Shown here: positions 41,829 to 62,328 of the stretch, piece by piece
How positions within the stretch are numbered: the stretch's first letter is position 1
Layout: each line of letters opens with the position of its first letter
DNA from: Halovenus carboxidivorans
Lineage (GTDB): Archaea > Halobacteriota > Halobacteria > Halobacteriales > Haloarculaceae
DNA: 64,000 nt
Direction: 5' to 3'
NCBI RefSeq assembly: GCF_009831575.1
Contig: NZ_WUUT01000001.1
Location: 643,345 to 707,344, forward strand
The notes under the pieces: generated by a model
The model's database searches: none
What the model saw: the letters and a program-made list of their open reading frames with translations, nothing else
What the model was told of the DNA's origin: nothing
Translations under genes and position numbers: made by a program

Positions 41829-42028
41829 ACTGATCCAGAGACGAGGCGCGCAGTAAACCTTACCGTCTCGCGGTGCCCCTCGATCCCGTCCGCGGATTTA
41901 AACCCGAAGCGGGGACCATCCCTCCGCGATGGTCGAGTTCGTGTTCGAGCCGTCGACGACGATTCCGGTGCTCTGCTGGCTGTTCGCCGGCGCCGCACTC
42001 GGCACGCTCAGCGGTCTCACACCCGGGT

Positions 42029-42069
42029 TGCACGCGAATAACTTCGCGCTGCTGCTCGCGGGCTTTGCG
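42029..42069 (+). repeat. attL, left copy of the 41-bp direct repeat
   Basis: It matches 51609-51649 with one mismatch (t at 42039, c at 51619). The last 30 bases are identical. It lies within codons 34-47 of the interrupted gene; the mismatch is silent (AAT/AAC, Asn). Core site of integrase-mediated recombination. Confidence 0.93.
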
Positions 42070-42181
42070 TTGTCTGGTGATTTTGCTATCAGCCGAGTGC
42101 TGTTACTTCGACCACCACCTCGGGGCCGTCACGTCTCCCGATTTACCCCAACAAGTTCACTTGGCAAAAAAGTGGGTGATG

Positions 42182-42226
42182 GTTCACCGTGTAGACTGGT
42201 AGTTCACCGTGATACAGTGGTTCAAC
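42182..42226 (+). repeat. Short direct repeats near attL (possible integrase arm sites or iterons)
   Basis: gttcaccgtg occurs at 42182-42191 and 42202-42211, 20 bases apart, and a partial copy gttcaac at 42220-42226. Two helical turns between copies suits a DNA-binding array for integrase or Rep. Confidence 0.5.
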
Positions 42227-42254
42227 AGTAAGGGAATATGTGGCGAGTCGTCGG

Positions 42255-42316
42255 GTTCGGACCCTCCGCTGCCGTCAGTCGCGTGGCGACGTGACGGCAG
42301 CGGTCGGGCCACGAAC
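42255..42316. other. Long hairpin just inside the left end of the element
   Basis: The core is CCGCTGCCGTCA (42266-42277) pairing perfectly with TGACGGCAGCGG (42292-42303). An inner 5-bp stem GTCGC/GCGAC, a 3-base loop and one unpaired G lie between. Outer arms can extend it through CCC/GGG and GTTCG/CGAAC to 42255 and 42316. It sits in a 185-base gap with no gene. Possible roles: a replication origin for the Rep protein, a strong terminator, or a transfer/packaging site. Confidence 0.7.
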
Positions 42317-42415
42317 ACCGACAGACTCGTTGTGATATACCGTAATCGGTAGAGATTCAAGGTAATGATTGCACTTTTGTAGAAGTGGGTGGATCTTTCA
42401 GCTACACAGACCTAT

Positions 42416-42871
42416 TCAACTATCACTGCTCGACCCACGTTGTGATTCTTGACCTCGTCCCCTCTGTCTTTCTCGTATCTCGTGTCCGTTCGGGCACGAC
42501 CCGTCTTTTAATTCAACACCACACTCGTGACAATATTGGAACCCTCTGCTTGGTTGAGGCGGTTGTTGACTGCGGTCTCTCGGTTTCTTTTGCAACTCGT
42601 GGCCGTTAGGACACCAGCCATCTTCTAACTTGGCCCCACATGTGTCACAATACTGAATATCCCTTTGTGGTTGGGAAATGCGTCTCTCTAACTCACGCTG
42701 TTTATCTGTGATAACGAGGTACCAGATAACACCTAATGAAAATATCCCAAATATTAGGGTAACAGAAAACCAAAATACACCACTTCTTCCGTTATCTGAT
42801 GCAAGACTTCCAGCCGCTGTCGCTGTAAATAGCCATATTAGTAATACTACAATTGTGAACCACAGTATCAT
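42416..42871 (-). CDS. Two-span membrane protein with two zinc ribbons
   Basis: The 151-residue protein has two hydrophobic segments (about 3-22 and 32-55). Two closely similar zinc ribbons follow, YCDTCGAKLEDGWCPNGHEL and YCHECGVELKDGSCPNGHEI, joined by a Pro/Gln/Arg-rich linker, and the C-terminus is charged. The ribbons are therefore cytosolic or exposed on one face of the membrane. The ATG at 42871 is preferred to a TTG at 42895. Role in the element unknown. Confidence 0.75.
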   Translation of the reverse strand: MILWFTIVVLLIWLFTATAAGSLASDNGRSGVFWFSVTLIFGIFSLGVIWYLVITDKQRELERRISQPQRDIQYCDTCGAKLEDGWCPNGHELQKKPRDRSQQPPQPSRGFQYCHECGVELKDGSCPNGHEIRERQRGRGQESQRGSSSDS

Positions 42872-42921
42872 ATCTTCACGTATCTCGGAGATCAATTAAA
42901 TTTTATGTCGATTTACAGGAC

Positions 42922-43443
42922 TCAACTATCAATTTCTGCTGGCCTCTGGAATCCCTCCCTCGCACACGGCCAACACGGTGGATCATCAGGACCCATTGAT
43001 TCGAGACAACTACAGTCGTCAGGTCGTTGATTGCTGTCTTCCCCGTCTTCTCCGTCGCTACCCTTGGGGTTGACCACCGAAGACCCACCATCACTGGCGA
43101 TCCTTCGAGGGCCTTCGACGTGTTCGCCAAGCAACGGGTCGACAGCGTCGTCGTTCACCCAGTTCGGGATCGCTCGCTCGCCAGTGGCGAAGGCAACACG
43201 TCGAACGTGCTTACAGACTTCGTCGTCGTCCAGATTGTGTTGGGAGTCAGGACAAGTACAGCGGCCTTTCTCGGCGTCCACACGATACTCTGATCCGCTT
43301 TCAGTGGTGACTGAGTAGATCCCACCGTCAAGCGAGAGAACGGTCATGCACTCCGTCAGTGCCCGCACATCTCGTTTCTCAAGTTCGGTACTGCTGTCGT
43401 TCGTGACGGAAGATTCACTTTCCGCCGACTCGAAAGCACTCAT
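42922..43443 (-). CDS. SWIM zinc-finger protein
   Basis: The 173-residue protein has a SWIM motif C62-x-C64-x12-C77-x-H79 inside a typical context (YRVDAEKGRCTCPDSQ...EVCKHV). An acidic linker and a second Cys group (CSC...CWPC) near the C-terminus follow. SWIM domains bind DNA or proteins, and small SWIM proteins are frequent in haloarchaeal mobile regions. The ATG at 43443 is chosen because the upstream extension is basic shadow sequence. Confidence 0.8.
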   Translation of the reverse strand: MSAFESAESESSVTNDSSTELEKRDVRALTECMTVLSLDGGIYSVTTESGSEYRVDAEKGRCTCPDSQHNLDDDEVCKHVRRVAFATGERAIPNWVNDDAVDPLLGEHVEGPRRIASDGGSSVVNPKGSDGEDGEDSNQRPDDCSCLESMGPDDPPCWPCAREGFQRPAEIDS

Positions 43444-43624
43444 GGGTTGCCTCAACCCGTTGCGTCCCTGTTGGCGCAGGGGCGCTTTTCCGCAGCGCAA
43501 TACGCAACGAGTTACTACATTCTACGACAGCCACCCACTTATAGATTGGTGGTTCGTATCAAACTACGTAAGTACAACTATCTGGTTGTCGGATAGCAGT
43601 ACGAGAGTTGAATTACCAGAAAAT

Positions 43625-43969
43625 TTATGACTTTAGTTGCGCGTCGACAGTGAGGGATTTCACGGTGTGAGTCTCGGCGTCTGCGCGGATTTTGAAGTGG
43701 ATGAATCCCTCTCCGTCACCCTCGAAGGTGATCGGTTCCCGTTCGAGCATGACGGTACTCGTCTCTCCGTCACTCAGCACCTCGAACACCTCCGCCTGAA
43801 ACAACAGCGACGACAGCGGGAGTGATCCGACTTCGAGCAGATCCCCACTATGATCGGTGACAGTGTCGCTATCAGTCTCTACTGCGCGGGCGTTGTTGAT
43901 GATGTGCTGTACTCCGTTGTCAGTTGGCCGCTCAAGTCGTGCCATTCCTTCGGTGGTTGCGTTCGACAT
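43625..43969 (-). CDS. Small acidic protein of unknown function, with own regulated promoter
   Basis: The 114-residue protein (MSNATTEGMARLERPTDNG...) is predicted mostly beta in its second half (VFEVLSDGETSTVMLEREPITFEGDGEGFIHFKIRAD). It has no Cys or membrane segment. The ATG at 43969 is supported by a strong TATA element at about 44024-44031 on the minus strand with an 8-bp inverted repeat over the start region. I do not recognise the family. It may be a regulator of the element or a secretion-independent accessory protein. Confidence 0.7.
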   Translation of the reverse strand: MSNATTEGMARLERPTDNGVQHIINNARAVETDSDTVTDHSGDLLEVGSLPLSSLLFQAEVFEVLSDGETSTVMLEREPITFEGDGEGFIHFKIRADAETHTVKSLTVDAQLKS

Positions 43970-43998
43970 TGCGATTAGACAAACGAGTAGGAGGCACT

Positions 43999-44031
43999 TA
44001 ATACCTATCAGAATACAGGTATTATATACCC
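43999..44031 (-). promoter_or_regulatory. TATA box and inverted repeat upstream of the 43.6-kb gene
   Basis: TAATACCT (43999-44006) and AGGTATTA (44017-44024) form an 8-bp inverted repeat directly downstream of, and touching, the minus-strand TATA element (ggtatataat). A bound dimer would block transcription. Confidence 0.6.
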
Positions 44032-44262
44032 CAAACTCAAACAATACAGTCGTAAGAGGGCGTCTACCCCCGATCCGTCTCGATTAGCGACAGGGGACCG
44101 ACTATGTCAGAAATGGGAGGGGATCGGCGTATCGAGATTTACCGCAACTTTTCCAGGCGAAAAAGGGGGCACAGAGCACTCGGTGTCTGTCGACAGGGTA
44201 GGACGCAGGCCCCACGGTCAAAGATGCGAGAGTTGTCACGGCTGGACCCGCACACTCTCATT

Positions 44263-44340
44263 CTGAGAATTTTCTCAGTCAGCATCCAACGGAATCATTT
44301 CTTTCATATAATAAATATAATATATCCGACACTTTAAGAG
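44263..44340 (+). promoter_or_regulatory. 16-bp palindrome and A+T-rich promoter of the hub-like operon
   Basis: CTGAGAATTTTCTCAG (44263-44278) is a perfect palindrome with a two-base centre. A run of A and T at 44305-44325 and a ctttaagag element at 44332-44340 follow, which would place transcription starts shortly before the small gene at 44385. The 300 bases before the palindrome hold no gene that I can support. Confidence 0.6.
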
Positions 44341-44384
44341 GCTGGAGATACAATGTATAGATAGGCGGAGATTCGCCTGATTGC

Positions 44385-44555
44385 ATGCAATCTGATGATA
44401 CTGATCTTCAAGATTTAGAGCCGATAGACCCCGAAAACCTGCCGACACACGCTACTGTGCTACAATGCGGTAGAGTGCTGACTGACGAGGGTATTATTGG
44501 ACGACTGGACAGCGACGAGGTCCCCGAGGTGAAATCAACCGATGAGCAGCCTTAG
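44385..44555 (+). CDS. 56-residue acidic protein upstream of, and overlapping, the hub-like gene
   Basis: The reading frame codes MQSDDTDLQDLEPIDPENL... and ends ...VKSTDEQP. It has strongly acidic, gene-like haloarchaeal composition. It begins at an ATG about 45 bases after the promoter-like run and its last 14 bases overlap the start of the next gene (ATG at 44542), which implies coupled translation. No family recognised. It could be a small partner or chaperone of the following protein. Confidence 0.65.
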   Translation: MQSDDTDLQDLEPIDPENLPTHATVLQCGRVLTDEGIIGRLDSDEVPEVKSTDEQP

Positions 44556-45975
44556 CCCCCACAGCCCGAACACAGAGACAGACTGTACCGTCGAGATCAA
44601 CGGCACCCGCATCCCTGTCGCTGATGTCGACATCCACATTCGCAACGAAGGCCCGATGGATATGGGGTATTACGCCGAGGGACAGTTTGCTTCACCATAC
44701 GAGGGTGAAGACTACCTGCAAGCGTTCAACATTGAGGACGAAAATTCCCCGATGGATGTCTGTTACATCCGTATCTATCGTGATGATCTCGATGGGTACG
44801 TCCCTGCCTTCCGTGGCCTCGTAACAGGTGTCGGGAACGCTGGTGGTGACACCCCCGAATCCATCTGGAAGTTCCGTGCTCGTGGCCCTGCCTTTTTCCT
44901 CGACAAGATTCCTGTTGCAGAGAACTTCTCGGGTCCTGGCGTTCGAGCAATCGCGGAGCTAATCGTAGAACAATTGAACGAGGATGTACCTCTCTCAGTC
45001 AGTCTCAACGACTCCTTTACCCGACCAACCGAGGAGGCTGTCTCGGAGGTTCAAGACACCGACGACAGTGACGGTTCATTCGAGGTTTCAAACCTCAGCC
45101 CTGGTACTGGCCTCCTCGAACGACAGGCCGAACTACTCGACGGGGCACGATCCTTCCTCAGCGACGACGATGACGAAGACTCAACACTCGTCGCGGACAA
45201 CAACGACGGCGGTGGTGGCATCCTCGTACAGCCAGTTATTCAAGGCTCAAAGCTGTTCCAGTTCATCGAGGACGAACAGAACAACGTCTCCCGAAAAACC
45301 TTCACACGGAACCGTCACACGCTCGCTGATGTCGTCTCGTGGATTACCGAGACGAAAGATCTGTTTCTGTACTTCGCACCGCGTCACGACCGTGTGAAGT
45401 TACAGGTGTTCCCCCAACAGGAGTTGGGCACCCACGACGCACACTACCTCGGTGGGGAGGTAAACGTCGTCGACAACAACGCACTGTCAGAGGTGAATCC
45501 GATCAACACGCTGACCCTGAACGCGAAAGCCGCGAACACACTGGGGTCCGTCGGTGGCTTCGAGGTGCAGGCCCCAGACGACGAGTTCGTCCAAGTTACC
45601 GCCCGTCACGGGCCACTGTACAGGCGTGCTGGTGAGACGGCATTACACGACACTGTCTTTACCGAATCAAGTGCAAACACCAAAGACGAAGCCGAGAAAG
45701 AAGTGCGAAAACGGCTGTACAATCGGATCACCAACGCCACCGAAGGCGATATGACGACGCTACTCTATCACCCGATTACGCCACACGACTCGATCACTGC
45801 ACTCCCAACGTGTCGGAGTACGCCTGCCACCGATACAGAACCAATCACATACAACGTGACCCGTGTCCACCATCAGATCCGTGCCAGCGGTATATCAAAA
45901 ACACGGCTGAACGTCGGTGTTGGCGTCGAAAACGGAGACATCGAGATCGTCAACAGCACGTACAAGGAAAAGTGA
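44542..45975 (+). CDS. Tail/baseplate-hub-like protein (gpD/gp27-type), isolated
   Basis: The 477-residue protein has no signal peptide or membrane span. Its order of features resembles phage late-control gpD/hub proteins. An N-terminal beta region with an INGTRIPVADVDIH start comes first, followed by YIRIYRDD-x-x-GYVPAFRGLVTGVG-like strand pairs (RGLV is typical). Next is a central RNRHTLADVVSWITE helix, and after it a C-terminal part with DEAEKEVRKRLYNRI and YNVTRVHHQIRASGISKTRLNVG, the usual hub ending. The likeness is by pattern only. It is oddly alone: no tail tube, spike or capsid genes are nearby. Confidence 0.7.
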   Translation: MSSLSPHSPNTETDCTVEINGTRIPVADVDIHIRNEGPMDMGYYAEGQFASPYEGEDYLQAFNIEDENSPMDVCYIRIYRDDLDGYVPAFRGLVTGVGNAGGDTPESIWKFRARGPAFFLDKIPVAENFSGPGVRAIAELIVEQLNEDVPLSVSLNDSFTRPTEEAVSEVQDTDDSDGSFEVSNLSPGTGLLERQAELLDGARSFLSDDDDEDSTLVADNNDGGGGILVQPVIQGSKLFQFIEDEQNNVSRKTFTRNRHTLADVVSWITETKDLFLYFAPRHDRVKLQVFPQQELGTHDAHYLGGEVNVVDNNALSEVNPINTLTLNAKAANTLGSVGGFEVQAPDDEFVQVTARHGPLYRRAGETALHDTVFTESSANTKDEAEKEVRKRLYNRITNATEGDMTTLLYHPITPHDSITALPTCRSTPATDTEPITYNVTRVHHQIRASGISKTRLNVGVGVENGDIEIVNSTYKEK

Positions 45976-46059
45976 GACTGGGAAGTACCGTGAGGCGAGG
46001 TAGGGCAACGGACCCGTCGGTCGGGTCAGGGAGGACAACAGCCTCAGTTGATGAATAAC

Positions 46060-46647
46060 TTATATCTGATCCAGCAACTCCGATTTCTTTTGTTCAAGCT
46101 CCTCTTCAGTTATGACACCGTCTTCATGTAGATCTCGCAGGCGTTCAAGTTTGGAGAGCGGGTCCTGCTCGGGGTTGTTTTCTGCGGCGTCACTACTCGG
46201 GTGGGCCATCTCTCGGATGAACTGTGCCATCTTTTGACGTTCCTCCTCGTTGATCTTTTCTGCGCCGAATTTGTAGGTATTCGGTGTTGCACGAAGCGTT
46301 ATCGTTTTCTTCACAACACCACCGCGATACTCAACACCAGAAATGTTGTTGTACGGAACTGTGATCTCATTATCTCGACTCAGGGCCTTCCAAACCCTGA
46401 ACACGACCCGTCTGTCGGTCGCAGCGGTTAGCACGTTCTTCGCTGTCCCCTTCTCAACATCGTCATCAGGAGCACGGATGTCCAAACCTGTTCCATTCGC
46501 GAGGAAGTGGACCTTTTCGTCTTGATCAAGTACATGATCTATTTTCGCTACGTTTGCCTCGGTAACGTATTCGTTTTGTGGTGAACAATTGAGGTCTGCA
46601 TTTTCGATCATCGGGTCATCGTCTCCACTACTGCCGAACAGTCCCAT
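46060..46647 (-). CDS. PH-like domain protein with C-terminal SHOCT motif
   Basis: The 195-residue protein starts MGLFGSSGDDDPMIENADLNC. Residues 55-145 look like a bacterial PH domain (TDRRVVFRVWKAL..., VPYNNISGVEYRGGVVKKTITLRA). The last 33 residues are a clear SHOCT motif (DPLSKLERLRDLHEDGVITEEELEQKKSELL). SHOCT is a short oligomerisation motif. A T-rich element near 46668-46676 on the minus strand suits a leaderless start at 46647. Divergent from the next gene. Confidence 0.85.
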   Translation of the reverse strand: MGLFGSSGDDDPMIENADLNCSPQNEYVTEANVAKIDHVLDQDEKVHFLANGTGLDIRAPDDDVEKGTAKNVLTAATDRRVVFRVWKALSRDNEITVPYNNISGVEYRGGVVKKTITLRATPNTYKFGAEKINEEERQKMAQFIREMAHPSSDAAENNPEQDPLSKLERLRDLHEDGVITEEELEQKKSELLDQI

Positions 46648-46747
46648 GAGGGAGTATCTCAATCTCTTTGATAAAAAATGCACCTGACCTTTGACGGATT
46701 CAATGCATCGTGGACGGCTATTTCTCACCCGCTGTTAGCCAAGATGA

Positions 46748-47419
46748 ATGGCGAGACTTGATAAACTTCGGTTAGTTACTAAACCTATGCTCGGAGGAAC
46801 GGCTCTCAAATTTCTTGTCTCTGTCTCTGCTGGATTTTTTGGTGGCTTGTTTTCTGCTATTGGTATTTACGTAATCCGACAGAAAAGACGTGCTGATAGA
46901 CTTCGACAAGCCATCTGTACAGAGATCAAAAGATCGACACCAGTTGGTGCGTTTGCTGTGGCAATAATGGGTGCAGAGTCATTGCAAACCCCGATTATTG
47001 AGGCTAATCTTGATAAACTGTACTTGCTGAATAGCGATGAGATTGCGATGGTAACACGGTATCACACACAGATGGCAAAAGTACGTGCGTACAACAGGCG
47101 TGAAAGCGAAGACGGTAGAGTGAGTATCTCTAAACAATTAGCTGAGAATACCAGCGAGATTGCGGGTAACACGACAGAGTTGTTGGAATCCAATATTTGG
47201 AAACGGCCAAAGCCGATAGCCAAGCTAAGAGGAGAGATAACCAGATTGCGTGGAGAATCCGAAAGTAAGGGAGGTTCGATAACTGACGAGGAAAAAGATC
47301 AAAAACTCGAAAAACTACGAGAGAAAGTAGATAGGATGGAAGCGTCAGGGAAGTTGCGCCGTATGCGATTAGAAGATATGGATGTCAAGGATATGTTGGA
47401 TGATCGTTACGAGGAATAA
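46748..47419 (+). CDS. Single-span membrane protein with coiled coil, unknown
   Basis: The 223-residue protein has a basic N-terminus and one membrane span at about 20-42 (FLVSVSAGFFGGLFSAIGIYVI). A cytosolic part follows with a helical region and heptad-rich Lys/Glu segments (about 155-210). Codon use is markedly A+T-rich and it is basic overall, unlike surrounding genes, which suggests recent transfer. Paired divergently with the PH-SHOCT gene; both could act at the membrane, for example in exclusion or stress response. Function unknown. Confidence 0.75.
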   Translation: MARLDKLRLVTKPMLGGTALKFLVSVSAGFFGGLFSAIGIYVIRQKRRADRLRQAICTEIKRSTPVGAFAVAIMGAESLQTPIIEANLDKLYLLNSDEIAMVTRYHTQMAKVRAYNRRESEDGRVSISKQLAENTSEIAGNTTELLESNIWKRPKPIAKLRGEITRLRGESESKGGSITDEEKDQKLEKLREKVDRMEASGKLRRMRLEDMDVKDMLDDRYEE

Positions 47420-47451
47420 ATAAGTCAACGCGTTTGTCGCCCCCAGAGCGG

Positions 47452-47736
47452 TTATGATTCGTTTCCTGTGTGCCCGTCCTCTGGATCGAACCGACTGCCC
47501 CTCACGTCCAGTCGAAAGGAGATGCGGCCACCCTCACGGCCTACACGTGGACGTATGACATTCGCTCTCGTAGGGCTACGGATTCTTCCATACACCTCCC
47601 CTGCATGGCGTATCTCGACAACCGTTTGATCGTGTGTCAGAAACTCCAGTAATTCTTCGTCCTGAAGTTGGTGAATTGTCTGGATAGCCGCAAACTCTGT
47701 GCTGTCTCGGTCTTCAACTTCGTACTCACGTTTCAT
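47452..47736 (-). CDS. 94-residue protein, unknown
   Basis: The small soluble protein (MKREYEVEDRDSTEFAAIQTIHQLQDEELLEFL...) has a helical first half, then beta-rich Arg-containing sequence (VYGRIRSPTRANVIRPRVGREGGRISFRLDV). It lies downstream of the rep gene on the same strand, about 110 bases away, so it could be the last gene of the HNH-rep transcript. No family recognised. Confidence 0.6.
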   Translation of the reverse strand: MKREYEVEDRDSTEFAAIQTIHQLQDEELLEFLTHDQTVVEIRHAGEVYGRIRSPTRANVIRPRVGREGGRISFRLDVRGSRFDPEDGHTGNES

Positions 47737-47847
47737 TGCTGGATGTTTCGCATGGACGGGTGTGGTCGGTCGCTCTGTGCAGATACGTTGGTTCCTTCGT
47801 AGGAATGGGCCTTGAGTACGTTGGGCAACTCCTGACGGTCAGAATAG

Positions 47848-49044
47848 TTAGCTTGGGAAGTCCTGACTGCTTGCGATCCCGTCAGTTACCGATGCCCACC
47901 GAACCGCCGCAGCCTGTAAGTCGATCTGGGTCTGTTCGTCCCCGAGGCTCTGCTGACCCTCACGAATCCGTCTAAACACCCAGTATGGGCGTTGATGAAG
48001 CAGGTAGGCCAGCGCCCTCGTGTTTAACTCAAACCCCTCTTTGTCGTTGTAATGCAAGTTTTCAATCAATTGCTCGTCATCCACATCGTCGTACTTCGGT
48101 GGCTCAGTGTGGACAACGACGGCGTCACTGTCTGTGTCGTCGCCAACGGAGTGGTCCTCGTGGCGAGCAAACTGACAGTGCTCTACGAACGCATCGACTG
48201 CTGGCTCGAAGTACCCAGCAGTCAGTTCGTCGTCGGGGTCGTCCACATAGATCAGCCAATGTAGATGTGGCGTTGCGGCTGAATCCGTCCCCGACACAAC
48301 CCACACGTAGGACCAACTGAAATCCCGCAACTGCTGATACAGCTTTTCGTACACCTTGCGAATTGGCTGATGCAATTGATAATCCACAGTCGTCGGGTAT
48401 CGCCACCGTCGTTTGCCGTCGCTGTGCTGGACTGACTGAGACTCAACAGTTGGGCCATAGTTATCACCGCTGTCCCTGTGCTCGGGGTCGGGGGCGTCTC
48501 CAATTGGCCGTGGTCGGAACGATAGCAGCGCAGTGCTCGGGTCGTCGTAGTGCTCGGTCAGTAACTCTCGTTCACCATCAAGATACCTGCCGTGCTGCTT
48601 CGCGGTCTTCTCGACCTTGCTGGTTCTGTCATCTCTGTCGTGGGTAGCTACTTCGTAGACGTAATAGGCTGTAGCGGCCCGCTCAACAGTCATTGGGCGG
48701 GGGTTGGGGCACTCGTCGGCTGCCATCGTGGAACGGTCCATCAGGTCGCTAAATGCGTCTGTGACGGTGTCTGTGTCGGCTAACGGATCGTATCGCTCTG
48801 GGCAGTCACCGCAGCCACACTCTACTAACGGCCTTGGCAGGGTGTCGATCTTTCGCCACGGTGGTGCAATTCGCTGCTGACCCCGTTGTTCGTGGTCGAT
48901 GTTCTCAGGATCGGCTGGCTCACTGGCCAGCAGGTCATCGAAGGCATCTGTCTGCGGCTCGTAGTCAGATTGAGACTCAACAGTTACGCCATAGTCAGCA
49001 CCGTCGGAACCAGCACCCCCTTCGTCGTCAGTCGCTTCGACCAT
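47848..49044 (-). CDS. HUH-type rolling-circle replication initiator (Rep)
   Basis: The 398-residue protein carries the HUH metal motif PHLHWLIY (His260 and His262) after a motif-1-like strand WSYVWVVSGT. Candidate catalytic tyrosines are Tyr346 (TRALAYLLHQ) and Tyr353. The N-terminal part has a Cys group (CGCGDC, ... C112). The pattern fits haloarchaeal plasmid and pleolipovirus-type Rep proteins that nick an origin and start rolling-circle replication. Residues 18-26 and 196-204 repeat YG(V/P)TVESQS, reflecting a repeated DNA segment inside the gene. It starts one base after the HTH-HNH stop. Confidence 0.82.
   Translation of the reverse strand: MVEATDDEGGAGSDGADYGVTVESQSDYEPQTDAFDDLLASEPADPENIDHEQRGQQRIAPPWRKIDTLPRPLVECGCGDCPERYDPLADTDTVTDAFSDLMDRSTMAADECPNPRPMTVERAATAYYVYEVATHDRDDRTSKVEKTAKQHGRYLDGERELLTEHYDDPSTALLSFRPRPIGDAPDPEHRDSGDNYGPTVESQSVQHSDGKRRWRYPTTVDYQLHQPIRKVYEKLYQQLRDFSWSYVWVVSGTDSAATPHLHWLIYVDDPDDELTAGYFEPAVDAFVEHCQFARHEDHSVGDDTDSDAVVVHTEPPKYDDVDDEQLIENLHYNDKEGFELNTRALAYLLHQRPYWVFRRIREGQQSLGDEQTQIDLQAAAVRWASVTDGIASSQDFPS
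48434..49002. repeat. Direct repeat pair inside the rep gene
   Basis: The segments 48434-48468 and 48968-49002 (35 bp each) match at about 30 positions, with a perfect 15-base core tgagactcaacagtt at 48437 and 48971. Both are in the same reading frame and give a YGxTVESQS peptide. Either a domain-level duplication or a DNA signal, such as a Rep binding site, carried within the gene. Confidence 0.6.
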
Positions 49045-49045
49045 G

Positions 49046-49705
49046 TTAGTCGCCGCTCACCCCGTTCATGTCGGCACTGTCGACCTGCTTGCCTCTGCTC
49101 GGCATCTCGACGTTACCCGTGTCACCGACCTCCTCGGGGTCAGGTTCACCGCTGTATTCCTCGAAGACTTCGGATAGCACAGCCTCAGCCTCATCAGTGT
49201 GCGAGAAACTGGCGTGTAACTGGTGGTGCTCGTGGACTGCCAGCACTTCCAAGTTATCGGGAATGTCGACAGGGACAGGTGCGTTCATCCGATGGTGGAC
49301 GTGGGTGTTGTCTCCGAACACATCGCTGATTGAGTACAACCAGTCACCGTCGTCGTCGTTGGCAAGAAGTGCAACTAACTGATACCGATAGAACGAGGTT
49401 CTGATCGGTTCGCCTGCACGGTCGAAATTGGGGACTTTGAACTGCGTCCTACCGTCTTCTCGGGTCGGAACCGAAATGGTGCGATCCCGTTCGTGCATCG
49501 GGGGACGAGTTTCAATCTCGTGTTCGGCCATCCAGTACCCAATTGTCTGCTGGCTGACACCGAATCGGTCCCCAATCTGTTCTTGTGAAAGGTCTTCATC
49601 GTGGTACAGACGGCGCAGTGTCTCCTCCTGCTGGAACGGACGAACGTTCGGCTGGGGTTGAGGTTCTGTACTACAGTTTTCTGAGTTTAGATTTGTGTCG
49701 CTCAT
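49046..49705 (-). CDS. HTH and HNH-like nuclease domain protein
   Basis: The 219-residue protein has a homeodomain-like HTH at about 25-62 (TLRRLYHDEDLSQEQIGDRFGVSQQTIGYWMAEHEIE). Residues 110-165 have an HNH-like pattern: VHHRMNAPVP (His137-His138), then DNLEVLAVHEHHQLH, as in homing-type HNH nucleases. An acidic tail follows. It begins at the ATG at 49705, with a dyad and TATA element just upstream, and is followed after one base by rep. It may be a regulator, a homing nuclease or a replication accessory factor. Family members of both kinds are known. Confidence 0.78.
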   Translation of the reverse strand: MSDTNLNSENCSTEPQPQPNVRPFQQEETLRRLYHDEDLSQEQIGDRFGVSQQTIGYWMAEHEIETRPPMHERDRTISVPTREDGRTQFKVPNFDRAGEPIRTSFYRYQLVALLANDDDGDWLYSISDVFGDNTHVHHRMNAPVPVDIPDNLEVLAVHEHHQLHASFSHTDEAEAVLSEVFEEYSGEPDPEEVGDTGNVEMPSRGKQVDSADMNGVSGD

Positions 49706-49748
49706 GTTGTTGGGGCGCGAGCGACTGCCGACAGGTGCCACTTGTCGG

Positions 49749-49779
49749 GCGGCTTGACAAGAAAGCCGCACCTTTATGT
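49749..49779 (-). promoter_or_regulatory. TATA box and dyad controlling the HTH-HNH/rep operon
   Basis: GCGGCTT (49749-49755) and AAGCCGC (49763-49769) are a perfect 7-bp inverted repeat with a 7-base centre. The minus-strand TATA-like acataaagg lies just upstream at 49771-49779, so the dyad spans the promoter-start interval. Autoregulation by the HTH protein is the simplest reading. Confidence 0.6.
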
Positions 49780-50156
49780 TCTCGAAACCCAAAGAATAGG
49801 GTGTAAGTCCAATTACCTCCTATTCTCCAGGTTCTTTTCAATCTCCAATTAGCATTAGCTATGTGATATATATCGGAGAGGCGTAGATCAGTCTCTATTT
49901 ACCCTTACGCCTGCTCACGGAAAAATGTTTTGCAACAAATACAAATGCTCTATTATCCATTTTCAATCACTCTGAACATCTGTTCGTAGGGCACTGTCGT
50001 TAGCCGTGTATTTGGCCGATAATGCTGTCAGAACTGGCTTTTTGGGTTACTTCGATGGATACCACTCGCTTGTTTGAAATAGCTTAGAATCGCTATCAGT
50101 CACTAAGTCTGATAATATGTAGTATCTGAAATAGTCGAGTCAAATCCCGCAACAGA

Positions 50157-50420
50157 TTTATAAGGTGTAGAACTCCTATCTGTACACAGACTCGCACTCA
50201 CCGTGCCCGAAGATCATTCGGTAAGGAATCACCTGCTGTCGAGTGGGCTGCAACGCTCACATGGAAGCACTGAAGCTGGTGGCTGGTGTCACGGTTCCGC
50301 CAACATACGGGATCGTGGCTATCCTTCATATCTATCTTCCCTGAAGGAGGCAGTCATTCCCCGACGACTAACTGGGAACCAGAATAGGTGTGGACTGGAC
50401 TGAACTGAGGGAAACAACAG
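50157..50420 (+). ncRNA. Candidate structured RNA in a gene-poor stretch of the element
   Basis: A 700-base gap (49800-50519) holds no convincing protein gene. A plus-strand TATA element (tttataa, 50157-50163) precedes a G+C-richer block. In that block CACGGTTCC (50290-50298) pairs along all nine positions with GGGATCGTG (50309-50317), with two G-U pairs and a 10-base loop. The block also contains conserved-looking text through about 50390 (for example ccccgacgactaactgggaa). From memory it resembles the 3' ends of haloarchaeal IS1341/TnpB elements, which give omega-type RNAs; no tnpB is present here. The rest of the gap is A+T-rich without visible structure. Confidence 0.45.
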
Positions 50421-50519
50421 TGTTACAGTGTTTCTTTCCTTCGTTTCAGGGGAAGACTCTATCTTTTTACAGCACAGTATATACGGAATAATGCAGTGCA
50501 CAGGGAGTACTCTTGTAGT

Positions 50520-51551
50520 TTATTCGTCCCCGAAGTGCTGGCGTCTCACTTCAGCCTTCTCGGTGGGACTACGAGCATCATAGTGTTCCGACAGCACATC
50601 CTGTGTCATATCAGCCCGATCCCCGACAGCCGTTTCGGGGATTCCGTCCGAGAGAAATTTTGTCACACCACCTCGACGGATTGAATGAGGTTTTACAGTC
50701 GACGGACAGTTGTGCCGTTGCTTGTCAGTGTTGTAGTCGCACTCAACGATCCCCTGTCCGTGAGGACAATCGTTCGAGTGGAAACAGGGGAGTTGCGCTC
50801 GATACAGTGTCCCTCGGAGTGTCGTCTTCGCTGGCCGCCCGTTCTCCGTCGTGAACAGTGGCTCCCGTCCATATTCGTCAGTGACGGGCTGACGGTGGTA
50901 TTCGATGTACTCGGTTAGTACATCTACCGTATCATCAGTGAGTGCAATTACTCGCTCCCCTCGCTGTTTGTTCTTCAACGGCGTGTCTGTCTCGGGCCGA
51001 TGCTGGACAGTGAGGCGGTTCTCATCGCCGTCAAGATCGCCAACATCTAACCCTCGGAGTGTTCCGATCCGAGCGGCTGTACGCCATGCAAGGCGGAATA
51101 GGGCGTGCTCACGGCTCCCGTAATACCGCTTGCGAAGTTGTTTGAGGATGTGGTCTGCGTCATCGGAGTGCAGGTAGGCGTTCCGTCTCCGATCCTCTGG
51201 GTCAATGTCGGGCAACGATACTTTATCTGACATTCCCTCAGGAACCGCGTCAATGTCTTCACAGAACCGAAGGAACACACGGACAGTCGATAACCGCGTC
51301 TGTACTGTCATCGGTGACGGATCGGCGTCACCCTCGGTAAAGTACCGTTGCAGGTGGATGACGTACTGGTGTAGAAGTCGACCAGTGAGGTTATTCAGGT
51401 TCTCGATACCCTCCCGATCACACCAGTTGGCGAACTTGGTGAGTCGTGTCTTCTGTGAGTAGTACGTGCTCTCGGCCACCTCTGGTTCTCGTTTCTCCAA
51501 GTACATTTCCACAGCGTTGCGTGGTTCGATTGGTTCGAGGCGTCCTGACAT
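50520..51551 (-). CDS. int: Tyrosine recombinase (integrase) of the element
   Basis: The 343-residue XerC/D-type integrase has an N-terminal SAM-like core-binding domain (about 10-115) and a catalytic domain. Visible catalytic residues are Arg161 (RIGTLRGLDVGDL), Lys193 or Lys195, His289 and Arg292 (HSIRR), and the nucleophile Tyr324 (SEHYDARS). The second His/Trp is less clear (GDRADM region). An inserted Cys/His group (residues 256-282, CFHSNDCPH...C...H-NC) may bind zinc. It starts 57 bases from attR and should carry out integration into the split gene. Confidence 0.93.
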   Translation of the reverse strand: MSGRLEPIEPRNAVEMYLEKREPEVAESTYYSQKTRLTKFANWCDREGIENLNNLTGRLLHQYVIHLQRYFTEGDADPSPMTVQTRLSTVRVFLRFCEDIDAVPEGMSDKVSLPDIDPEDRRRNAYLHSDDADHILKQLRKRYYGSREHALFRLAWRTAARIGTLRGLDVGDLDGDENRLTVQHRPETDTPLKNKQRGERVIALTDDTVDVLTEYIEYHRQPVTDEYGREPLFTTENGRPAKTTLRGTLYRAQLPCFHSNDCPHGQGIVECDYNTDKQRHNCPSTVKPHSIRRGGVTKFLSDGIPETAVGDRADMTQDVLSEHYDARSPTEKAEVRRQHFGDE

Positions 51552-51607
51552 GGGTGTGTAGTGCTCTCGGGTAGACAGGACGGCCCACGTCGACGGTGGC
51601 GTGATAC

Positions 51608-52729
51608 CTGCACGCGAACAACTTCGCGCTGCTGCTCGCGGGCTTTGCGCCGGCTATTCCCGCCCCGCCGCTGTACGTCGGCGTCGCCATGCTCGCCGCG
51701 GGCGTCGTCCACACGTTTCTCGACATCGTGCCGGCGCTGGCCCTCGGCGTTCCGGACCCGTCGATGGCGCCGACCGCCCTCCCGGGTCACCGACTCGTCC
51801 TCCGTGGCCGCGGCCGCGAGGCGCTCCGTCTCTCCGCGCTCGGGAGCCTTCTTGCGGTCGGATTCGCCGTACCTCTCGCCGTTCCAGTGACCGTCGGGAT
51901 GGGACGGCTCTATCCCCACGTCGTCGCCAATCTCACGCTCGTTCTCGGCGCCATCTGCATCCTTCTGGTCGTGACCGAACGCTCGATGCAGGGCCGGGTC
52001 GGGGCGGCGGTGACGGTGGCTACCAGTGGACTGCTCGGCGTCCTCACGCTGGACGTTCCCGCGGACGGTCTGCTCCCGACCGGGAGTATGCTCGCACCGC
52101 TTTTTGCCGGACTGTTCGGTGCGCCGGTGTTGATCGAGGCCCTCGACGGCTCGGGGGTTCCCGAGCAGGACGATCCACAGATCACGACCTCCCGTCGATT
52201 TCTGCCGGTCGTGGCCGTCGTCGGCACGCTGTCGGGCGCGGTCGTCGGGTTTCTACCCGGAATCTCCAGCGCCATCGCCGCCGCTGGCGCGCTCGTCTTG
52301 CTCCCGTACTACGGCCCCCGTGCGTTCGTCGTCGCGTCGAGCGGCGTCAACACCGCAAACACCGTCTTCGCCCTGTTCGCGCTCGTCTCACTGGGCCGCC
52401 CCCGAACGGGCGTACTCGTCGCTCTCGACCGAACGGAGGTCCCGCTCGATCTCCCGATTCTTCTCGCTACGGTCGGCATCGCCGCAGTTCTCGGATTTCT
52501 CGGCGTCCTCGCTGTCGGTGACTGGTATCTGACCGCGGTCGGAGCCGTCGACAACGCCGTCCTCTCCGTGACGGTTCTCGCCTTCCTGTGTCTGCTCGTA
52601 TTCGCGTTCACCGGGGCGGTCGGTCTCGTCGCCTTCGCAGTGAGTACGGTCGTCGGTCTCCTTCCGGCCCGGTTCGGGGCCCGACGGATGACCTGTATGG
52701 GGGTGTTGCTCGTCCCACTCGCAGTTTAG
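51608..52729 (+). pseudogene. 3' fragment of the split TctA/DUF112-type membrane protein gene
   Basis: From the repeat onward this codes 373 residues of a polytopic membrane protein with about nine to ten spans (first native segment LHANNFALLLAGFAPAIPAPPLYVGVAMLAAG). It ends ...VLLVPLAV, and its stop is shared with the next gene in TTAG (52726-52729). The family resembles tripartite-tricarboxylate TctA/DUF112 permeases. With no native promoter or start, any product would begin at an internal ATG such as 51689. Excision would restore a 406-residue protein. Confidence 0.9.
51609..51649 (+). repeat. attR, right copy of the 41-bp direct repeat
   Basis: Partner of 42029-42069. The chromosomal gene resumes in frame from this copy, without an upstream start codon: an in-frame TGA lies at 51602. 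Confidence 0.93.
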
Positions 52730-57279: not shown

Positions 57280-58518
57280 ATGACACAGAGGGTTACCCGT
57301 GTTCAGGTCGTAATCACAGTCGCTCTTCTTTTAGGAGCCACAACTGTTACTGGTACAGGCATAGTCAGCGACCGTGGTAAACTAGGACAGACAACAATAG
57401 AACATCAGAACGGAACCACAAACCAGCTAACTCCACAAGATACAACGCAGCTCCGGGCTGAGGAGATCCACATCAGGAAAGATGTTTCCGATTCAGCTGC
57501 TGTCACCGCCCAGATCATACATTCTGAGTATGAGAAAAATTATATAAGATTAGGTGGAGTAGTGAATGATAGTATAAATGAATCTCGTGTGGTGCAGAAA
57601 ATAAAACATATAGCAAATAGATACGAAAAAATAGATACAAAAACACAAAAATTACTATCAGAATATTATACCGGTAGGTTATCTGGCCGAAAATTACTCA
57701 CACATCTTTTATTAGTCCAAAAACAAGCAGAATCACTGTCCAATGTGAAAAATTCTATAGAAAACAGAGATAACGTGGCAGATGAGATAAAAGAACGTGC
57801 TGATTCTCTTGAGGAATCAGTTATTGTTGAACAACCCGCCCTTAGATTGGTAGATGGCGTAATCACCGGAAATCTGAGTAGCATTGATTTATACATGGTA
57901 TCTGGGAATTCCAGCCTTATTCTTAGCTCTGTGAATAATAATTCATATTTCCGTCAAGCAACTCTCTATTCTGGACGTAATCTGACTGCACCGGATCAGT
58001 TCCGCAATACCACATTTTGGGGCGCGGGGAATGCATATGACTATCTAATAGGTCAAGATTTCTATCCGTGGGCGCTTGCTGAAGGTAATCTTGAATCAAT
58101 CACTGTTGGCCGCGATGAGACCTCAGTATATAGTCAGATCTATAAGTTCGAGATCCTCCATTCTCAAGGTAAGATTACCACTTACTTCGATGGTGGAACA
58201 AAAAACATATTCCATGAAGCGCAAAGAAAACCAATCAATGAACAGCCTGTCACCGCAAGGAGAGTGAATGGAACTTCTGATATCATTGCCGCAGTGAACA
58301 AAACTGTCCCGTCTGGGCCAATGCAAATATCTGTGACGGACACCAGCGGAAAACCTATACCCGGGGCAACTGTAAGGATTAGTGGCGCTCTTATTAATGG
58401 AACAATTACGTCAATGACTGACCCTCACGGCAGCGTCCACACCATCCAACCCTATGGCAGATTTACTGTCAAAATCATCACTCCTGAAGGTCATAAGGCG
58501 AGTCTTTCATCTTTGTAG
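57280..58518 (+). CDS. A+T-rich gene for an exported, probably glycosylated protein
   Basis: The 412-residue product has a signal-like N-terminus (VVITVALLLGATTVTGTG), many Asn-x-Ser/Thr sites (about ten, for example NGT, NES, NSS, NNS, NLT, NTT) and a helical middle. A C-terminal beta domain follows (ISVTDTSGKPIPGATVRISG...) of the carboxypeptidase-regulatory/Ig-like kind. It resembles the exported haloarchaeal proteins often found beside surface-layer genes. Codon use is far more A+T-rich than the neighbours. The open frame may continue past the stop in another frame (to 58631). Confidence 0.8.
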   Translation: MTQRVTRVQVVITVALLLGATTVTGTGIVSDRGKLGQTTIEHQNGTTNQLTPQDTTQLRAEEIHIRKDVSDSAAVTAQIIHSEYEKNYIRLGGVVNDSINESRVVQKIKHIANRYEKIDTKTQKLLSEYYTGRLSGRKLLTHLLLVQKQAESLSNVKNSIENRDNVADEIKERADSLEESVIVEQPALRLVDGVITGNLSSIDLYMVSGNSSLILSSVNNNSYFRQATLYSGRNLTAPDQFRNTTFWGAGNAYDYLIGQDFYPWALAEGNLESITVGRDETSVYSQIYKFEILHSQGKITTYFDGGTKNIFHEAQRKPINEQPVTARRVNGTSDIIAAVNKTVPSGPMQISVTDTSGKPIPGATVRISGALINGTITSMTDPHGSVHTIQPYGRFTVKIITPEGHKASLSSL

Positions 58519-58634
58519 GTGGTGAATTATCAATCGAAGCTGGGACAAAAGCTAATTCAACAGCTATTGGGTTACCTCAAGTGTTTTTGTATTGCCAGCC
58601 TGTACATCAGAATGAGACAACCTACAGGTGATTA

Positions 58635-58734
58635 CTTATATATTTTGATCCGTCCGATTAGTTTGCTCGTCTACTCACAAATTATGTCAGATGATATTAA
58701 TGATGCTGCCCAATTAACAGAAAACATTTAACGG
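58635..58734 (+). promoter_or_regulatory. Candidate promoters of the S-layer gene
   Basis: Two TATA-like elements lie upstream of the S-layer ATG (58866): cttatatatt at 58635-58644 and catttaacgg at 58725-58734. They would give leaders of about 200 and 110 bases; a leader of roughly 100 bases is known for other haloarchaeal S-layer genes. I see no protein gene of note in 58632-58865. Confidence 0.5.
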
Positions 58735-58865
58735 TGGCGTTGCGACGTTCCTATAGCCCCTGCCACATGAGCATCGGAAGTAGTGGTAGTTAATGATGAT
58801 GTGTTGGTGATGACGGGGGCCACGAACCCAAACGCTCAGATTGAAAGACTACAAATCATAAAACT

Positions 58866-61800
58866 ATGACAAGAAACGACATACGCGAAAAGACACGAGC
58901 GGTATTCCTTGCTGCGCTCATGGTGCTGTCCGTTTTTGCTGTGGGCGCATCCCTTGCTGGGACTGCAACCGCAGTTAACCAGGGAACCGCTACTGCCGGT
59001 AACGACGCACCGACCGAGACAACCACTCACACGCTGAGTGCAGTGACGGACTCGGCAGAAGAAGACAGTAGCATACAAGGCATTGCAATCGAGTACGGTA
59101 GTGAAGTTGATCTCTCCAATGTCGCCGATGGAGATATTACTGTCTCTATTGGTGGACAAGAAAGAGATCTTAGCGCCACGTTCGTCAGCGACAGTGAAAA
59201 TCGGGTACACGCTGAACTCTCCGACTCAGTAGATGGCCCAGACGCCGGAACCTCCATTGAGGTTCAGATTGACAACGTCGTTAATCCTGGCAGCGACGTT
59301 AGCGTGACGCTTTCCACTCACGACTCGTCGTTCACTGTCGATCAGGCATCGCCGGGTGGCGAGATTGGCAGCACCACCGCAACATTGGCTATTGGCGCTG
59401 AACAGGTTGCTAGCGGTGATATTGATGGCCGGATCTTCTGGGAAGGCCAAACCGTCACCGTTGATCTTAGCAACACGGGTCTCAGCCCTAATGCTCAGGT
59501 GGATATTCGAGAGGTGACATCTCGGGCGAACAACGGTGAACCAACCTCTTCACGGCTGGCCCGATCGGTTACTGTCGCACAAGATGGTACCATCTCGTTC
59601 GACACGAATCGTCTTCGTGGTGAGGGCTTCTACGTCCTCCGCAGCGGTGGTCAATTCCTCAGCGGCAACTCCTTCAACCAGTCAATTACTGGCGCAGACG
59701 AGTTTGAGTTGCTCCAGCAAGACCTGAACACGGAGTTCGCCGATGATTCCGTCGCCTTCGATGGATCCTCATCCGTCAGCATTGCATCGCTCCGTGGTGA
59801 GTTTGACGTTGAAATTAGCGGTACACTCAATGGTGACCCTCTCGATAGCGAAACCCTTAATTCCATCTTCGGTGGCTCTGAGGGCGATCAGATCGTTACT
59901 GTCCGTGACGTACAGGACGGCGACGATCTCACCGCGGATTTCAGTAGTGTTGACGAAGCTGGTGATTATGAGTTTACCTTTGAGGCTACCGATACAACTG
60001 CCTCTGATACCGCCAGCATAACCGTAGAAGAACAAGTTGATACCGATGCGACGATCGTTGGCGGCCCCTACACTGAACAGCGCGGTGACATTGTTGAGGT
60101 GACCGTTGACCTTTCGGGCACTGACAACGCACAGATCTCGATCGGTAGCGATAATGCTGGTTACTCCGCAGTTGTCAATGTTACAACTGAAAACCGTGGT
60201 GATGAGTTCACCTTCAGTTGGAACTCCTACGCCGCCGGTGCTGGGCACCCTGAAGCCTTCCAGCCAGTCAGTGATAATATCGAAAACCTCGAAGTTGAAC
60301 TCAGCGAAGATATCCAAGTCGGTGGCGGTGACGATGATCAAATTCTCGCTGCCGGAACATATGACGTTGAAGTGACGCCTAACTACCAGCGTTCCGGTGC
60401 AGAATCCACCGATGCTAGTACGATCAGCCTTAACCAGCGTTCAACTAATAGTGTGAATACGTGGGTCACCACAACTGATGCACTCGATGCCGTTGATAGT
60501 GCGGATGATCCACTTGCTACCCTTAATAATGAGATCGGCTCGAGCGTTACAGAGTCCGGCTATGTCGCCGAGGGTGATGTTCTTATCAGCGAAATTGATG
60601 CCAGCGGCATTGAGGGCGCGCTGGAGGCCGTTTCCGCTGATGGTGCATCTGATACCGCGGCCTTCCGAGCCGCAGTTGGCGACGTCATCAATCTTAACTT
60701 CACACAAGAAAACCCAACACGGAACCGTCAGCCGATACAAATTAACTACGGGCAAGTCACTCCTGCCCAAACTACGGTTGTTGCTGACGAGAATAACGAT
60801 ACATACTACGTCGCACTTGAACTTAGCGACTTCACCGATCAAACTGCACTTGATATCCGTCGGAACATTCGCGACGGAATGACCTTCGAAAGCGAATTCA
60901 AGGTCAACCCAGGTAACGAAGAGAATCTTGAAAGCTATCGGTTTGGGCTTGTTCCGCCAAACTCAGACGGTGAGTTTGTTGCACAGACTGTGACGGATAG
61001 CTGGGAAGCAGTTAACAGAGAAGCTGAAGTTAACCGTGAAGGAGACGAAATTGTTGTTGAAGCGGCAGAAGGTCAGACGATCAGTGGGACAACAACGGTC
61101 GCACCCGGAACTGAACTGACCTTCCGTGTCTCTAGCACAAACGCAGCCGAACCCTTCGTCATTCCTGGCCTCACCGCAACCGTTCAGGAAACCGGTGAGA
61201 ATGAGCTCAACGAATGGTCTGTCAATGCAGACTTCTCGGAGACCACCCCAGGTGACGAATTCAACTTTGTGCTGCGTGACTTCCGGAACCAGCTCGGTGA
61301 ACGCATCACTGTCTCTGGTAGTGTCGCCGAGCCTGGTGAGCCGCGCTTCCAGGTCAGTAACCTCAATCCCGAGGAAGCAACGATTGCACCTGGCGATACG
61401 CTCACCGTTTCTGCAAGCGTGACGAACAATGGCGGGGCAGCAGGGACACAGACCGTTGCGCTTGAACTTGATGGTGATGTCCTCGCAGAACAGGAGATCA
61501 CTCTCGAAGCTGGCGCAAGCCAGACTGTCTCCTTCGATGTCTCTGGTAGTACCACTGAAGGTCTTGAAGAAGGCGACTATACGCACAGCATCACAACAAA
61601 CGACACGTCAGCCAGCGGCACGCTGACCGTTGACTCGCCTGATCCAGCCTTCTTCGAGATTACCAACTTCAGTCCCGAAGAAGCAACTGTTTCCCCGGGT
61701 GACGAAGTCGAAGCGACCGTTACCGTCGAGAACACTGGCGAAGTTGAGGGCACCCAGACGGTGACTCTCGAAGCCGACAGTGGTCTCGGCGAGCTCGGTT

Positions 61801-62180
61801 CGCAGGAAGTCACGCTCGGTGCAGGTGACTCCGCGAACGAGACCTTCACCTTCCAGGTCCCATCCGACATCAGTGAGACCACTGAGGTCACGCACACTAT
61901 CAGCACTGCAAATGACAGTGTCAGTGGCACGCTGACTGTTGAAGTCGACAGCCAGGACGGTCAGGATGGCCAAGACGGTCAGGATGGCCAAGACGGCCAG
62001 GATGGCCAAGACGGCCAGGATGGCCAAGACGGCCAGGATGGCCAAGACGGCCAGGATGGCCAAGACGGCCAGGACGGCGGTAGCGGCTCCGACGACAGCG
62101 GACCTGGCTTCGGCATTGCCGCAGCCCTGATCGCCTTCGTCGGCGCTGCACTGCTGGCGTTCCGTCGACGCGAGAACTAA
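58866..62180 (+). CDS. csg: S-layer glycoprotein with Gln-Asp-Gly repeat and PGF-CTERM
   Basis: The 1,104-residue protein starts MTRNDIREKTRAVFLAALMVLSVFAVGASLAGTATA, the S-layer signal peptide pattern. It has beta-rich repeated domains, including two similar domains near 840-1020 (FQVSNLNPEEATIAPGDTLTVSASVTNNGG and FEITNFSPEEATVSPGDEVEATVTVENTG). Residues 1030-1071 are 14 Gln-Asp-Gly repeats. The end is a PGF-CTERM: GPGFGIAAALIAFVGAALLAFRRREN. This tripartite end (PGF motif, membrane segment, Arg patch) is processed and lipid-modified by archaeosortase, encoded next. It is the main cell-wall protein; it is A+T-richer than the housekeeping genes. Confidence 0.95.
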   Translation: MTRNDIREKTRAVFLAALMVLSVFAVGASLAGTATAVNQGTATAGNDAPTETTTHTLSAVTDSAEEDSSIQGIAIEYGSEVDLSNVADGDITVSIGGQERDLSATFVSDSENRVHAELSDSVDGPDAGTSIEVQIDNVVNPGSDVSVTLSTHDSSFTVDQASPGGEIGSTTATLAIGAEQVASGDIDGRIFWEGQTVTVDLSNTGLSPNAQVDIREVTSRANNGEPTSSRLARSVTVAQDGTISFDTNRLRGEGFYVLRSGGQFLSGNSFNQSITGADEFELLQQDLNTEFADDSVAFDGSSSVSIASLRGEFDVEISGTLNGDPLDSETLNSIFGGSEGDQIVTVRDVQDGDDLTADFSSVDEAGDYEFTFEATDTTASDTASITVEEQVDTDATIVGGPYTEQRGDIVEVTVDLSGTDNAQISIGSDNAGYSAVVNVTTENRGDEFTFSWNSYAAGAGHPEAFQPVSDNIENLEVELSEDIQVGGGDDDQILAAGTYDVEVTPNYQRSGAESTDASTISLNQRSTNSVNTWVTTTDALDAVDSADDPLATLNNEIGSSVTESGYVAEGDVLISEIDASGIEGALEAVSADGASDTAAFRAAVGDVINLNFTQENPTRNRQPIQINYGQVTPAQTTVVADENNDTYYVALELSDFTDQTALDIRRNIRDGMTFESEFKVNPGNEENLESYRFGLVPPNSDGEFVAQTVTDSWEAVNREAEVNREGDEIVVEAAEGQTISGTTTVAPGTELTFRVSSTNAAEPFVIPGLTATVQETGENELNEWSVNADFSETTPGDEFNFVLRDFRNQLGERITVSGSVAEPGEPRFQVSNLNPEEATIAPGDTLTVSASVTNNGGAAGTQTVALELDGDVLAEQEITLEAGASQTVSFDVSGSTTEGLEEGDYTHSITTNDTSASGTLTVDSPDPAFFEITNFSPEEATVSPGDEVEATVTVENTGEVEGTQTVTLEADSGLGELGSQEVTLGAGDSANETFTFQVPSDISETTEVTHTISTANDSVSGTLTVEVDSQDGQDGQDGQDGQDGQDGQDGQDGQDGQDGQDGQDGQDGQDGGSGSDDSGPGFGIAAALIAFVGAALLAFRRREN
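61953..62078 (+). repeat. 14 tandem 9-bp units coding Gln-Asp-Gly in the S-layer gene
   Basis: The units alternate between caggatggc and caagacggc types, so much of the array is an 18-bp repeat. All encode QDG. It replaces the Thr-rich, O-glycosylated stretch usual before the membrane anchor in S-layer proteins and is likely to vary in length between strains by slippage. Confidence 0.95.
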
Positions 62181-62226
62181 CGACCGAATCGGCTCGGTCG
62201 TCCTTGCGGTATTTTCCTTTTTTTTT
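62180..62226 (+). terminator. Hairpin and T-tract terminator after the S-layer gene
   Basis: ACGACCGA (62180-62187) pairs perfectly with TCGGTCGT (62194-62201). After 16 bases comes a run of nine T (62218-62226). Oligo-T is the archaeal termination signal, and a strong terminator suits this highly expressed gene. Confidence 0.85.
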
Positions 62227-62328
62227 GCGCCGACCAGCGGCGGCGCTGCCTTGCCTCTTCGTCGAGAGTCGCTGCGTTGACTGCCTAACAATAAGACATA
62301 TACTCCCGATAGCCCAACCAGCGTGTAG

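Follow-up and report, generated by a model that had tools for sequence, protein, structure and literature searches.

An integrative element with an SNJ2-type integrase and a lone baseplate-hub homologue interrupts a TctA permease gene in Halovenus carboxidivorans

Introduction

Integrases of the SNJ2 type are a described family, and the elements that carry them are found only in the Halobacteria (PMC8371274). Induced pleolipovirus proviruses have been recorded at tRNA genes (PMC7911831), and archaeal attachment (att) sites within coding genes are also on record, such as that of BJ1 at the HMG-CoA reductase gene; a review of archaeal recombinases asks whether such coding-gene sites show dyad symmetry (PMC8371274). 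Here we describe an integrative element in a 64,000-nucleotide (nt) stretch of the Halovenus carboxidivorans genome (assembly GCF_009831575.1, contig NZ_WUUT01000001.1, positions 643,345 to 707,344 of the forward strand), referred to below as the window. The element is well bounded and its integrase is of a known kind; its target, the middle of a TctA-family permease gene, is unusual, and its interesting gene set includes a lone homologue of a tailed-virus baseplate hub. We favor the reading, at a probability of roughly 0.6, that it is satellite-like and probably replicates by a rolling circle.

Several described systems come close. The viruses SNJ2, HHPV4, and HRPV9 and proviruses such as Halfgib1 have integrases 38 to 42% identical to that of the window's element over the full length, likewise adjoining one att site; the window's element differs from SNJ2-type integrase elements in lying mid-gene in a permease and in lacking their virion genes. 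With BJ1 it shares an att site inside or at a protein-coding gene, although the genes and the elements are different ones. Satellites such as phage-inducible chromosomal islands (PICIs) and P4 are also small and integrative and act on tailed phages, and the window's element has a lone tail part and no capsid gene. It differs from them in having no packaging gene and in that its helper is hypothetical. PICI and P4 satellites carry a primase, whereas the window's element has a putative replication protein (Rep) of the HUH type instead.

Results and Discussion

A sequence-only reading of the window had described a segment bounded by 41-bp repeats with one silent mismatch, whose flanks join in frame into a full 406-residue protein. 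Both parts of this description hold. The direct repeats are identical at 40 of 41 positions and lie 9,580 bp apart, start to start; the sole difference (T/C) distinguishes AAT from AAC, both Asn codons. A search of the whole 3.25-Mb genome that allowed up to three mismatches found just these two copies. Joining positions 41929 to 42028 with 51609 to 52729 gives a single open frame of 406 amino acids (aa), which Pfam assigns to TctA over its full length (PF01970, E = 2.6e-57, residues 15 to 397). GC content per kilobase is mostly 0.48 to 0.57 in the insert, compared with 0.64 to 0.68 in the flanks. It is not plausible that the repeats, the in-frame joint, and the GC contrast arose by chance. 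The features of the interrupted gene are as follows.

41929-42028, plus strand: permease N-terminal piece, codons 1-33 (PF01970); its frame runs on through attL to a stop at 42231
42029-42069, plus strand: attL, AAT version of the 41-bp repeat, permease codons 34-47, with the inverted repeat CGCGAA-N4-TTCGCG inside
51602-51604, plus strand: TGA in the permease frame, directly before attR
51609-51649, plus strand: attR, AAC version of the 41-bp repeat
51650-52729, plus strand: permease C-terminal piece, first ATG at 51689; 346-aa orphan product, residues 1-60 missing

The insert breaks the host permease and does not rebuild it. On the left, the N-terminal piece continues past codon 47 into element sequence; on the right, the in-frame TGA precedes attR and the next start is ATG 51689, with none upstream, so the gene is not restored from that side either. 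The earlier claim that a TctA/DUF112-type gene is destroyed rather than given a new end is therefore supported, and the intact gene that it proposed to look for elsewhere was found. Relatives of the 406-aa permease turned up in 388 of the 392 genomes sampled from the order, with a single match in most; congeners retain an intact permease (68 to 74% identity to the 406-aa protein), and among matches to that protein the window's genome has the two pieces only.

Inverted repeats of the CGCGAA-N4-TTCGCG kind are bound by tyrosine recombinases. Because an equally good one is present in about 4% of the permease gene's 41-bp windows, the dyad within att is only moderately above the gene's chance level and is only suggestive as a recombinase-binding feature. 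With that reservation, it is a case of dyad symmetry in a coding-gene att site, which bears on the question raised for such sites (PMC8371274). At the mismatch codon, the permease genes of relatives have AAC or a nonmatching codon, never AAT; the T of attL may therefore have been brought in by the element, or it may be a later change.

The element encodes ten proteins.

42416-42895, minus strand: membrane protein with double zinc ribbon, 159 aa (PF12773, E = 4e-6)
42922-43500, minus strand: SWIM zinc-finger protein, 192 aa (PF04434; phrog_17897, E = 7e-29), with homologues in elements L104, L107, L108, and L109
43625-44044, minus strand: p139, function unassigned, conserved in L103 and L109
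44542-45975, plus strand: lone baseplate-hub homologue, 477 aa (hub of Haloarcula tailed virus 2 [HATV-2], E = 2e-9), with orthologues in nine other small elements
46060-46728, minus strand: PH-SHOCT protein, 222 aa (PF14470, E = 9e-10; PF09851, E = 4e-8)
46748-47419, plus strand: 223-aa protein of no family, with a membrane segment and a coiled coil by eye
47452-47736, minus strand: p94, function unassigned, conserved in L103 and L109
47848-49044, minus strand: putative rolling-circle Rep, 398 aa, HUH motif TPHLHW (PF07232)
49046-49792, minus strand: HTH-HNH protein, 248 aa (phrog_7545, E = 2e-21)
50520-51551, minus strand: SNJ2-type tyrosine integrase, 343 aa (PF00589), beside attR

These family matches bear out the integrase, HUH Rep, HTH-HNH, SWIM, and PH-SHOCT proteins that had been named from the sequence. 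The integrase is 42.4% identical to that of SNJ2 over 100% of its length and 41.2% identical to that of HHPV4 over 99%, and its best virus matches are mostly pleolipoviruses (SNJ2, HHPV4, HRPV9). The family is delimited by identity of 30% or more across 60% of the protein (PMC8371274). By this measure the enzyme is of the SNJ2 type, with recombination activity predicted, and because its family also occurs in 351 of the 392 genomes (closest relative there, 50% identical), we judge it ordinary and its target unusual. The match of Rep to PF07232 is weak (24.5 bits against a curated cutoff of 23); the HLH (HUH-type) motif is present, and the Rep of the related element L109 scores higher, at 60.3 bits. 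Pfam and PHROGs revealed no major capsid, portal, or large terminase among the ten proteins, and the hub alone is held in common with tailed proviruses. Comparison of the whole element's DNA with plasmids and 97 related genomes returned short matches around the SWIM gene, the integrase gene, and a few other stretches and no syntenic copy. No relative of the hub, Rep, or integrase was found in IMG/VR, and none of Rep or the hub in PLSDB. The same genome has another SNJ2-type integrase that is likewise close, at about 0.6 kb, to a SWIM-like match, the second in this genome (G000:C6:174193-176104); this integrase may commonly be accompanied by SWIM proteins.

The 477-aa protein, previously noted as isolated and hub-like, has a match in the protein annotated as the baseplate hub in HATV-2. 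Its homologue in L104 matches the same hub over 90% of its own length, and in L106 the homologue lies beside a tape-measure gene, as in HATV-2. By these matches, the protein is a true baseplate-hub homologue. A profile search placed the family in 10 of the 392 genomes, only one of which (G395, two copies) has a whole HATV-2-like tail cluster with tape measure, gp24, hub, and baseplate-J homologues. In ten small, low-GC integrative elements (about 6 to 16 kb), including that in the window, the hub frame is intact (427 to 626 aa). These elements and their sizes are as follows.

Window, 9.6 kb
L104, 11.4 kb
L105, 15.5 kb
L106, 14.4 kb
L107, 9.0 kb
L108, 9.1-9.3 kb
L109, 15.6 kb
L118, 8.4 kb
L117, about 6 kb, by composition
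L103 (genome G260), at least 11 kb, outer end open

The virion-gene scan covered eight of them (the window's and L103 to L109), L117 and L118 being left out. No capsid, portal, or large terminase is listed for the 85 open reading frames (ORFs) of L103 to L109, where the 15 weakest families are not shown. The sequence-only reading could match the gene set to no element family that it could name, and it had asked whether homologous elements exist. Both points now have an answer: the integrase is of the SNJ2 type, and hub-bearing elements do exist, of which L103 and L109 (genome G120) share the HNH, Rep, p94, hub, p139, and integrase genes with the window, L109 also the SWIM gene. To our knowledge, elements of the L103/L109 type have no published name. 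The hub tree sets the L118 hub beside that of the G395 provirus and requires that small elements acquired the hub separately at least two times. In L117 (L117:7247-13000, genome G345), a low-GC stretch of about 6 kb has an accessory gene, an integrase of a type described below at permease codon 285, the hub, and little else; no flanking repeat was found, and it is perhaps a minimal lone-hub element. We found no report of lone-hub elements, nor of a TctA permease as an integration target, in the literature searched, which leaves out most subscription papers and makes both negatives weak.

The related elements dock at varied sites. L105 (Met), L107 (Ser), L108 (Ile), and L118 (Ser) are at tRNA genes, and L104, bounded by 119-bp repeats, adjoins a coding gene at its end. 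L106 (L106:3908-18376) and L109 (L109:3802-19487) lie in a gene that, from the motif HVDMDCFYAACE encoded at the insertion point, we take to be dinB (Pol IV). Both replace the 5' end of the gene with a new in-frame start; the window's element, in contrast to these two, provides none for its target. That the window's element uses a coding gene instead of a tRNA gene, as proposed earlier, is right for its mid-permease site, but this habit is not unique, given dinB, the other coding-gene end, and further permease splits.

On the following comparison, the permease gene itself is a recurrent integration target. In nine other genomes of the 392 it is parted by inserts at codons ~281 to 293, around the motif TANT[IV]FA: 3.4 kb in G197, 5.1 kb in G388, 5.4 kb in G167, 6.4 kb in G047, 6.7 kb in G374, 38 kb in G247, 54 kb in G328, 59 kb in G358, and 121 kb in G285. 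The gene of G441 is also parted near codon 285, across contigs. Repeats of 11 to 19 bp (e.g., AACACGATCTTCGC) flank six of the nine inserts; those of G197, G388, and G247 have no convincing repeat at their flanks. Two types of tyrosine recombinase adjoin the junctions. One is an integrase of ~335 aa accompanied by an accessory gene whose ~180-aa product looks ribbon-helix-helix-like by eye (G047, G167, G197, G374, G388); the other is a 433-aa recombinase with a zinc ribbon (G358 and G328). The ~335-aa integrase has no BLAST similarity to that of the window (E > 0.2), and at least two unrelated tyrosine recombinases appear to be used at the codon-285 site. "Hotspot" would here mean recurrence at the same site with integrases at the junction, not a rate. 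The count leaves out apparent splits without inserted DNA in G206, G222, G272, G378, and others, which have the look of frameshifts or divergence.

Two inserts in the permease gene have contents of their own interest. The 121-kb insert (G285:C1:521541-642996) has 19-bp flanking repeats and encodes, next to the junction, a large replication protein (phrog_17376); it is possibly a whole integrated plasmid. At codon ~267, the permease gene of G381 holds a 13-kb insert (L061:1489-14600; G381:C1 ~296488-309599) with an integrase, a match to a terminase small subunit (phrog_9231), a tape-measure protein, and a primase-polymerase. No capsid was seen in it, which makes it a second permease insert of the satellite-like sort. 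Codons 34 to 47, the site used in the window, are so far unique: no further insert was found there among 116 genomes of its own family and 118 of another family, so the syntenic elements sought at these codons by the sequence-only reading did not turn up. Nor was a relative found with the gene split at this place without inserted DNA.

We propose that the SNJ2-type integrase would recombine a circular attP with attB, the 41-bp stretch in the permease gene. Integration duplicated att and disrupted the permease; precise excision would restore it, because its two pieces read in frame once joined. When excised, the element would exist as a circle copied by the HUH Rep, and the likeliest use of the lone hub would be on a tailed virus that has entered the same cell. 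Tentatively, the hub may serve the element as a satellite by joining or replacing the virus's own hub. A role in interference, in which the hub would spoil tail assembly and thereby protect the host, seems doubtful. An integrase is present and a full set of virion genes is not; helper-dependent packaging, the further mark of PICI- and P4-like satellites, would be hypothetical here. Several points weigh against the satellite-like reading: neither excision, a circle, particles, nor a helper virus has supporting evidence, and no packaging gene was seen. The site is occupied in one genome only, so that the att specificity proposed for this integrase is drawn from a single case. The hub is 22 to 41% identical to its relatives, and its single-sequence AlphaFold model (pLDDT 31) was too poor to show a gp27-like hub fold. 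The hub profile gave only a chance hit against solved structures, and an alignment of eight hubs was too diverged for use against IMG/VR.

The same genes can be read in other ways. The element could be an integrative plasmid that spreads by itself, with the hub as a defence gene, a dominant-negative tail part directed at incoming tailed viruses. Its own Rep would permit replication without a helper, restriction genes occur in some relatives (L109 has Mrr), and the model is at hand in Tai proteins, by which bacterial phages (prophages among them), PICIs, and P4-like satellites block tail assembly (PMC11364771). That paper, however, does not report Tai proteins as hub homologues, and the words "hub" and "baseplate" are absent from it; moreover, PADLOC gave no convincing defence match and none for the hub. 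We regard such a plasmid as unlikely. Another possibility is decay of a tailed provirus that has lost its head genes and most of those for the tail and has kept the hub as a remnant. In its favor are the full tail clusters with a related hub in G395 and the tape measure still present in L106, but retention of the same gene every time is not expected from decay. Ten small elements independently keep the hub frame intact with the rest gone, and most lone-hub elements have a plasmid-type Rep and exact repeats, while L117 manages with an integrase and the hub in about 6 kb; this origin is thus quite improbable. A pleolipovirus provirus or close derivative, suggested by the top virus matches of the integrase, is very improbable, since searches of Pfam, PHROGs, and NCBIfam (libraries that diverged copies may escape) linked none of the ORFs to a spike, VP3-like, or ATPase family and the SNJ2-type integrase family, given its spread over the sampled genomes, is not confined to pleolipoviruses.

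If the element and its relatives are satellites, parasitism of tailed viruses by small elements would extend to haloarchaea, with a single tail-tip part as an unusual tool. A broader proposal is speculative: lone-hub elements may be satellites of tailed haloarchaeal viruses that place their own hub in helper tails and so influence which cells are entered, and several unrelated integrase lineages may use the TctA permease as a reversible non-tRNA dock. Split at three sites, and by integrases of several kinds, the permease is a natural case in which to test why coding genes serve elements as targets and whether breakage of this one is tolerated or favored.

A second low-GC stretch in the window (57280-63342) encodes a 1,104-aa S-layer-like glycoprotein that ends in a C-terminal anchor and, after it, a membrane protein resembling archaeosortases. 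We considered the 57- to 62-kb region as a second element and dropped it, as it holds the S-layer-like glycoprotein gene and ordinary chromosomal genes.
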